64,000 nt of DNA from Arcobacter sp. CECT 8986. Its GTDB lineage: Bacteria > Campylobacterota > Campylobacteria > Campylobacterales > Arcobacteraceae. Made by a program: the position numbers and the translations under genes. The stretch spans positions 1 through 64,000 of the forward strand of contig NZ_PDKG01000002.1 of assembly GCF_004116725.1 (NCBI RefSeq), in the 5' to 3' direction. A model generated the notes under the pieces. That model saw only the letters and a list, made by a program, of their open reading frames with translations, did no database searches and was not told the DNA's origin. Positions 50,022 through 51,363 of the stretch are shown here, piece by piece (position 1 is the stretch's first letter; each line of letters starts with the position of its first letter).

Positions 50022-50027
50022 ATTATA
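50022..50027 (-). promoter_or_regulatory. Possible -10 box of the degenerate GGDEF gene
   Basis: On the minus strand TATAAT lies 26 nt before the ATG at 49995, followed by GGGAGAG. It lies just beyond the left repeat of the inserted unit and was therefore likely present before the insertion. Confidence 0.4.
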
Positions 50028-50034
50028 TAATTTT

Positions 50035-50057
50035 TTAACTTATAAACCTTGCAGTAA
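50035..50057. repeat. 23-bp direct repeat, left copy (detached duplicate of the recO 3' end)
   Basis: This sequence, with core aaccttgcag, is identical base for base to 51341-51363. On the minus strand it encodes LLQGL and a stop, the recO C-terminus, but no recO gene precedes it here. It starts 2 nt after the stop codon of the ubiquitin-domain gene. Confidence 0.92.
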
Positions 50058-50059
50058 TC

Positions 50060-51280
50060 TTAATATGAAATTGACCAATTAAAAGCAAGCCATCTATCAA
50101 AAGAGTTGTTTTTATTGCTATAATTATAATATATATTAAATTTGCTATTTTCAAAAGTTTTACTAAATCCAATATTTAATTTTGTCCAGTTTTTATCTTG
50201 TTTATCTATATTGTATTTAAACTTATCACCATTATAAAATTTACCAGAAATATTTGCATCGCTTTCATATAATAGATGAGTTTGTTCTAAACCAAATAAT
50301 AAATCTAGTGATTTAATAATTTCATAATTAGAATTTATTCCTACTCTTATCTCACTACTATCTCTTTTTATAGTATCATAGTTTGCAGATTGTCTTTGTG
50401 TTGTACTCTCTTTATATGAGTCAATATTTGTTTTATACGCTGCAAATTCAATAAAAGGTATAAAGTTTATATTGTATTTTTCTATATAATTTTCTAAGTC
50501 TGCTCTTGCTCTAATTGAATATGATTTAATATCGCTACTACCTTTTACACTTTTTTTTGAAATATCTAAATATTCTCTTTTTATATTTGCATCTGATTTA
50601 TTATATACAAATGATATAGTTGCCCATAAGTTTTTATTAATTGATGATAAATTTGATAATGTTTCTAAAACAATAAAATTACCATTAATTTTTTGATATC
50701 CATTTGAACTTGTTTTTTCTTTTGAGTAGTTTTTACCTAAAGATAGATTTATTTGTATATCTGTATTTTTATAAATAGTAGAACCTATTTCTCCAATTCT
50801 AAAATAATCTACATTACTATCATTTCCACTATTTCCTAAGTCTCCTGCTACCCAAAAATTATTATTTGAATTTTTATCTTCTCTAAAATCAAGAGGATGT
50901 CCATGCAATCCATGAAGAATAAGGTTTGTAACCTTATGTGCAGTAAAAAGAATATTTTGTTGTTTTTTCATGCTAATATCATCAATTAATGGTTTTATTT
51001 TTAGAACAATTAAATCTAAAATACTCTCTTTTTGAATATTGTAATCTGCTAAAGTTCTTCCTTCTTCTAGCTTTTTAGATGAAAATAGTAACTGTTGTTT
51101 TGAAGGTAAAATTCCTGTCTTTTCTTCAATTTTAGCTTTGATATTTTCAATTGTATCATTTGCCTCAACTTCAAGTGCAGTAAATGGTATATCAGTACTA
51201 TTTATAAATATCTGCATTGCAAAAAGATTTATATTTGCTATGAAAATACAAAAAAATATGCACACTAATTTATTATTCAT
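50060..51280 (-). CDS. Secreted ubiquitin-domain protein with a C-terminal autotransporter-like beta-barrel
   Basis: Residues 1-21 are a Sec signal peptide ([20 protein letters not shown] then A). Residues 22-93 align without gaps to ubiquitin 1-72. Matching blocks are MQIF, LEVE, DTIEN, KAKI, GRTL and DYNIQKES, about 41 of 72 identical by hand count. The region matching ubiquitin 6-14 is divergent. Counterparts of Lys27, Lys29, Lys33, Lys48 and Lys63 remain, Lys6 and Lys11 are lost, and the Gly-Gly tail is replaced by Lys-Pro. A helical linker (about 97-140) leads to a roughly 265-residue beta-strand-rich barrel (from [10 protein letters not shown]) ending [10 protein letters not shown], a typical outer-membrane C-terminus. 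The expected outcome is export of ubiquitin as passenger, or tethering at the outer membrane; function unknown. ATG at 51280 has AAAGGA 6 nt upstream. It is bracketed by 23-bp direct repeats. Confidence 0.85.
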
Positions 51281-51306: not shown

Positions 51307-51340
51307 TCAAAAATATAATTAATTATTAGTATTAATTATA

Positions 51341-51363
51341 TTAACTTATAAACCTTGCAGTAA
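51341..51363. repeat. 23-bp direct repeat, right copy (3' end of recO)
   Basis: Identical to 50035-50057. It covers the last five recO codons, the stop codon and 5 nt beyond on the minus strand. The flanking bases differ on both sides, which fixes the repeat at 23 bp. Confidence 0.92.

Follow-up and report, generated by a model that had tools for sequence, protein, structure and literature searches.

An exported ubiquitin fused to an autotransporter-type barrel in Arcobacter sp. CECT 8986, and related exported ubiquitins in many bacterial phyla

Introduction

Ubiquitin is the textbook intracellular tag of eukaryotes. What, then, is a ubiquitin domain doing between a signal peptide and a putative outer-membrane barrel in a bacterium? 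This question is raised by one gene of the window (the whole stretch of DNA analysed here, 64,000 nucleotides from Arcobacter sp. CECT 8986), in which a first-pass annotation had proposed a signal peptide, a eukaryote-like ubiquitin, a helical linker and an autotransporter-type barrel. A precedent for ubiquitin export is BfUbb, which Bacteroides fragilis secretes (PMC3352274, PMC5705921) and which has been described as a unique bacterial homologue (PMC3352274). A plant-parasitic nematode, Globodera rostochiensis, secretes a ubiquitin with a C-terminal extension (PMC5705921). In the open-access literature, no report of ubiquitin fused to an autotransporter or another anchor was found (only the BfUbb papers and unrelated ones), and no priority is claimed here for a surface-anchored bacterial ubiquitin.

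Anatomy of the gene

The gene (Table 1) is a minus-strand ORF of 406 aa, whose ATG is preceded by a Shine-Dalgarno-like AAAGGA. The Sec-type signal peptide, called by eye and by alignment with seven relatives, ends in LFA, and the A preceding the ubiquitin start is invariant across the aligned signal peptides of these relatives. Structure prediction of the whole protein, one of the checks that the first-pass annotation had proposed, was performed with AlphaFold on eight sequences (the window protein and its seven relatives; pLDDT 83, pTM 0.69) and returned both a beta-grasp domain (residues 22-92) and 12 strands (140-405). What had been read as a helical linker is a single helix (95-123), separated from the ubiquitin by a short stretch only. 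The profile searches, the predicted structure and the superpositions on solved proteins all point the same way, and the three-part anatomy (exported ubiquitin, helix and autotransporter barrel) is thus confirmed.

Table 1. Features of the ubiquitin-autotransporter gene and its insertion site (window coordinates)
Feature	Position	Strand	Basis
Whole gene, exported ubiquitin-autotransporter fusion	50060..51280	-	ORF, Pfam, model, relatives
Signal peptide, residues 1-21, predicted cleavage before M22	51218..51280	-	inspection and alignment of relatives
Ubiquitin domain, residues 22-93, no terminal Gly-Gly	51002..51217	-	PF00240, identity, superposition
Long helix, residues 95-123, presumed autotransporter pore helix	50912..50998	-	AlphaFold; structural alignment
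12-stranded beta-barrel, residues 140-406, C-terminal aromatic Y406	50063..50863	-	model, VIA-align, NCBIfam EstP
Left copy of an imperfect direct repeat (34 nt, 85% identical) with TTAACTTATAAACCTTGCAGTAA as its identical end; copy of recO 3' end	50024..50057		repeat search
Right copy of the repeat, genuine recO 3' end	51330..51363		repeat search; empty/scarred sites
recO-like flanking gene, 205 aa	51346..51963	-	ORF; present in all six genus genomes

The ubiquitin domain aligns gap-free with residues 1-72 of human ubiquitin at 41/72 identical positions (57%), exactly the number that had been estimated by hand. It matches Pfam PF00240 with 60.7 bits, the cut-off being 25.4 (E 1.2e-16), its best single-domain PDB ubiquitin scores an E of about 1e-21, and the predicted domain superposes on solved ubiquitins at about 1.1 Å over 71-75 residues (Z about 15; Foldseek, VIA-align). 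The assignment to the eukaryotic type of ubiquitin and the HMM check proposed for it are therefore both borne out. It is the sole ubiquitin-family match in its own genome, and PF00240 has no match in 14 control bacterial genomes. Chance similarity is ruled out by the profile and PDB scores together with these silent controls, and eukaryotic contamination by the 485-kb contig, the matching GC3 (0.108 for the gene, 0.125 +/- 0.03 for 49 long window ORFs) and the occurrence of the same plan in two single-contig genomes (G004 and G120).

Conjugation of ubiquitin, by the chemistry known so far, needs its terminal Gly-Gly. Gly75-Gly76 is absent from the window domain, the sequence of which runs on past the ubiquitin end, and a GG near positions 75-76 is found in only 6/88 relatives. 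The motif is missing in nearly all members, which makes conjugation unlikely in the family, and going by this chemistry its absence excludes conjugation of the window ubiquitin. A search for E2 enzymes (PF00179) matched nothing in its own genome, and was silent in the controls too.

The barrel class was assigned through homologues and the predicted structure. A Pfam search with the C-terminal part of the window protein matched neither PF03797 nor another barrel family, so that the autotransporter HMM check gave no match for the window protein itself. It did give matches for its homologues: the four checked (L094, L016, L060 and L035), from a set that aligns with the window tail over about 300 aa, match PF03797 (Autotransporter; E 6e-20 to 5e-15). 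The window tail also matches the NCBIfam EstP autotransporter barrel (E 5.4e-8, far below the whole-protein cut-off of that model). Using Foldseek and VIA-align on the predicted structure, the matching solved barrels are EstA (3kvn; Z 30.1, 306 residues, 2.8 Å), NalP (1uyn; Z 28.9) and EspP (3slj; Z 28), the aligned range covering the helix region of all three, and the autotransporter-type barrel first read from the sequence is thus upheld. Autotransporters of the EstA/EstP and NalP/EspP types share with the window protein the pore helix, the 12-strand barrel (Z 28 to 30) and an aromatic C-terminus, but sequence identity between the barrels is only about 10-13%, and their passengers are esterases, proteases or beta-helices, whereas that of the window protein is ubiquitin.

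In a small phmmer search set, the part following the ubiquitin matches the tails of seven proteins (E 1e-36 to 1e-43), from Pseudomonas neustonica, P. putida, Thauera (two adjacent genes) and three Akkermansiaceae. All seven begin with a signal peptide and a ubiquitin. The fusion is not confined to the window gene: it is one of many in many phyla, with seven homologous cases on the same barrel class. As the same barrel family also exists without ubiquitin (L121 of P. neustonica, L141 of Hoeflea), the ubiquitin has been swapped in as a passenger. The two side-by-side ubiquitin-autotransporter genes of the Thauera MAG (L060, 222-3001) carry ubiquitins that are 64% identical.

A wider family of exported ubiquitins

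An earlier genome scan built on the single window protein found no relatives, its patterns missing distant ones. When 84,980 species genomes were scanned with patterns based on five aligned exported ubiquitins, 116 ubiquitin-encoding loci emerged, belonging to Pseudomonadota, Bacteroidota, Verrucomicrobiota, Bacillota, Actinomycetota, Campylobacterota, Synergistota, Spirochaetota and other phyla. The best 80 of these 116 loci were read, plus 12 viral contigs; because this sample is biased by the patterns, one of the two demanding MQIF behind a signal-like end, and by the restriction to the best 80, its counts and the conservation at residues 1-4 and 21-28 should not be over-read. Phage records gave no match. 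Many loci come from metagenome-assembled genomes (MAGs), the contigs of which can be misplaced; named isolates are also present. Five loci of eukaryotic or viral appearance (L037 and L099-L102) were excluded from conservation counts; L037, from a Nitrospinota MAG, is a four-repeat polyubiquitin ending in RLRGG, most likely a eukaryotic contamination.

In most examined members, the signal peptide ends at ubiquitin residue 1 or no more than about two residues away from it. Among 53 members scanned, PF00240 is found in 53, PF03797 in 22, and SLH, Por_Secre_tail and IPTL-CTERM in four each; the anchors joined to ubiquitin thus include autotransporter barrels, S-layer, type IX secretion (T9SS) and IPTL-CTERM modules. 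No recurrent neighbour, operon partner or immunity gene was found beside the ubiquitin-barrel genes in 97 neighbourhoods.

Other arrangements were also met. Pedobacter cryoconitis (L028, 4228-5630) has four tandem genes, each encoding a signal peptide and a bare ubiquitin that stops at residue 72 or one past it (LVLR in one). Four actinobacterial MAGs (L050, L070, L072 and L078) carry two or three adjacent genes, with no obvious signal peptide, in which ubiquitin domains are followed by a shared tail of ~150 aa; among the genes conserved beside them is one for a protein that begins in a twin-arginine-like manner.

Distribution and insertion site in Arcobacteraceae

An exported ubiquitin is present in 3/6 Malaciobacter genomes, including that of the window. 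The other two, G004 and M. halophilus, carry a different version at a different locus, with ubiquitins 88% and 82% identical to human. The G004 gene has a PF03797 barrel (E 1.7e-47), and that of M. halophilus is interrupted by the contig end. A 475-aa version occurs in G120, from another genus of the family. The same architecture, which had been expected in other Arcobacteraceae, is therefore found there (G004 and G120), on a different barrel. Across Campylobacterota the exported ubiquitin is rare, with 4/397 genomes scoring over the cut-off; in the class of P. neustonica, 2/369 do. In another member of the family (G049; L011, 6958-10230), a signal peptide and a ubiquitin (57% identical to human) head a repeat protein of >1000 aa that is truncated by the contig end; similar tails are found in Saccharibacillus (L029) and on a Pseudoalteromonas plasmid (L013).

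The window gene lies between what are, by inspection, presumably recO and a large signalling-type protein, and the recO 3' end is duplicated so that one copy stands on either side of it. It is absent from this site in G001, G002, G003 and G004. G005, the closest genome by recO (92% identity), still has the two repeats together with some 25 nt from the 3' end of the gene, so that the gene was most likely carried by the common ancestor of G005 and the window genome (G000) and later lost from G005. The window gene is a resident with ameliorated codon use, neither fresh nor contaminating.

Selection, exchange and origin

The ubiquitin is better conserved than the attached tail in most of the pairs that were compared: identities are 81% versus 38% for L002/L008 (dN/dS 0.09 versus 0.51) and 94% versus 39% for L021/L047. 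The opposite trend is seen for L032/L051, L058/L084 and L068/L076. Judged from these substitution patterns, exported ubiquitins evolve under purifying selection; repeated capture of a near-invariant eukaryotic protein would also yield high identity between distant members. In two of the 12 pairs tested, synonymous divergence differs between ubiquitin and tail (0.33 versus 0.06 for L068/L076, p 5e-7; 0.01 versus 0.20 for L042/L044, p 2e-5), showing that the ubiquitin module is swapped by recombination. A module that faces a partner would be expected to show such separate exchange.

The tree of the ubiquitin domain (72 columns) leaves nearly all forks unresolved, the window row being its longest end branch; it resolves neither the donor nor the number of transfers, nor repeated capture versus slow change. 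Acquisition from a eukaryote had at first been proposed as the simplest origin. However, as Pseudomonas, Thauera and Akkermansiaceae carry ubiquitin on the same barrel class, direct uptake from a eukaryote is no more likely than transfer of the complete fusion from another bacterium.

The binding face

Conservation relative to human ubiquitin, computed outside the ascertained positions and with core and Ile44-patch positions of our own assignment, is 94% for the core, 82% for other non-core positions and 65% for the Ile44 patch, the latter being below the other non-core positions (p 0.008, random choice of positions). The most conserved positions are presumably largely the known structural ones, and the C-terminal tail of ubiquitin decays after residue 71 across the family. 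All of L8, I44, H68 and V70 are as in human in 42/85 members; six keep none.

The window copy has T8, L44, D68 and I70 at these positions. The suggestion that it might bind ubiquitin-recognising proteins of a host or protist is thus doubtful for this copy, in which the Ile44 patch, the C-terminal tail and Gly-Gly are gone. With L8T, I44L, H68D and V70I, its recognition by ordinary ubiquitin-binding domains is unlikely; such recognition is possible for the G004 and G120 copies.

Discussion

From its anatomy, its homology and the recurrent fusion of ubiquitin to surface anchors, the domain is very probably displayed on the cell surface. The gene product would be a monomeric, type Va-like autotransporter with a single ubiquitin domain as sole passenger. 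After Sec export, signal peptidase would cut at or beside ubiquitin Met1; the barrel would then insert into the outer membrane, and the passenger, carried outside, would remain attached and uncleaved, the pore helix keeping it at the mouth of the barrel in the manner of uncleaved EstA. The data show the anatomy, the relatives and the selection acting on the ubiquitin; from them, we infer surface topology, lack of cleavage and a role of the non-conjugable ubiquitin as a non-enzymatic surface ligand in cell-cell contact. Members that keep the Ile44 patch intact would most likely have a eukaryotic partner (protist or invertebrate), while the window copy, having lost the patch, would probably have moved to a different one; the identity of the partner, eukaryotic or otherwise, is a guess. 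The chances that this explanation holds in its entirety, as an autotransporter displaying ubiquitin as a contact ligand, are put at about even. A surface ligand is supported by the recurrence of export and anchoring by unrelated means (autotransporter, SLH, T9SS, IPTL-CTERM), by the purifying selection on the ubiquitin and by its separate exchange. The lower conservation of the Ile44 patch and the absence of conserved neighbour genes that could hint at a partner count against it, and the strongest conservation, at largely structural positions, fits a fold-only role.

Under that fold-only reading, ubiquitin would have no specific partner and would simply cap the N-terminus of a surface barrel as a small, very stable domain. 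The classical recognition face drifts, against 94% conservation in the core, and the window copy combines a lost Ile44 patch with a short stretch to the pore helix. Nevertheless, purifying selection is stronger on the ubiquitin than on the tail in most pairs, almost half of the members keep the four patch residues, and other stable folds would serve as well, yet ubiquitin recurs on four kinds of anchor; a mere cap is thus considered unlikely. It is still less probable that the domain folds in the periplasm and acts from there as a plug or regulator of the barrel. Ubiquitin folds fast, which could jam translocation or keep the domain periplasmic by blocking its outward transport. However, in its barrel and its pore helix the protein resembles classical autotransporters, which carry their passengers on the outside, and Gram-positive members anchored in the S-layer have no such periplasm.

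The closest known relative in kind is BfUbb (8hm2), which shares with the window gene a bacterial setting, a signal peptide ending right before Met1, a eukaryotic-type domain and the lack of C-terminal glycines. BfUbb is secreted, starts at Met1 after its signal peptide and antagonises other B. fragilis strains, no immunity gene being needed (PMC5705921). By analogy, the displayed or released ubiquitin could enter or touch related bacteria and inhibit an essential protein, and both the patchy presence (3/6 Malaciobacter, 4/397 Campylobacterota) and the module exchange are weapon-like. Such an antibacterial role is nonetheless improbable here: BfUbb is a free and diffusible protein of 76 residues, whereas the window ubiquitin forms one chain with an outer-membrane barrel, with no cleavage site identified, and it is nearer to human ubiquitin (57%) than to BfUbb (43% by structural alignment with 8hm2). 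The secreted nematode ubiquitins likewise combine a signal peptide, a ubiquitin and a C-terminal extension, but are eukaryotic, with a 12-residue extension that is removed in the plant (PMC5705921). Eukaryotic ubiquitin itself (PF00240) shares its fold and 41/72 residues with the window domain, which differs in being exported, in lacking Gly-Gly and in having lost the Ile44 patch.

Ubiquitin thus recurs as an exported module of bacterial surface proteins, kept by purifying selection, and its carriers live in many habitats shared with protists, animals or plants. Tentatively, extracellular ubiquitin may be a general mobile surface module, non-conjugable and derived from eukaryotes, which many phyla have each placed on their own anchors and directed at a common outside partner, e.g., a protist or animal surface. 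Should a partner be found, this would reveal a new way in which bacteria make contact with eukaryotes or with each other. Cultured carriers allow testing, namely in Malaciobacter, Pseudomonas, Paracidovorax, Pedobacter and Ruminococcus. The exported ubiquitin of Ruminococcus albus plasmid pRUMAL01 (L014, 2926-3666) lies near a dockerin gene and is already annotated as a 'ubiquitin family protein'.
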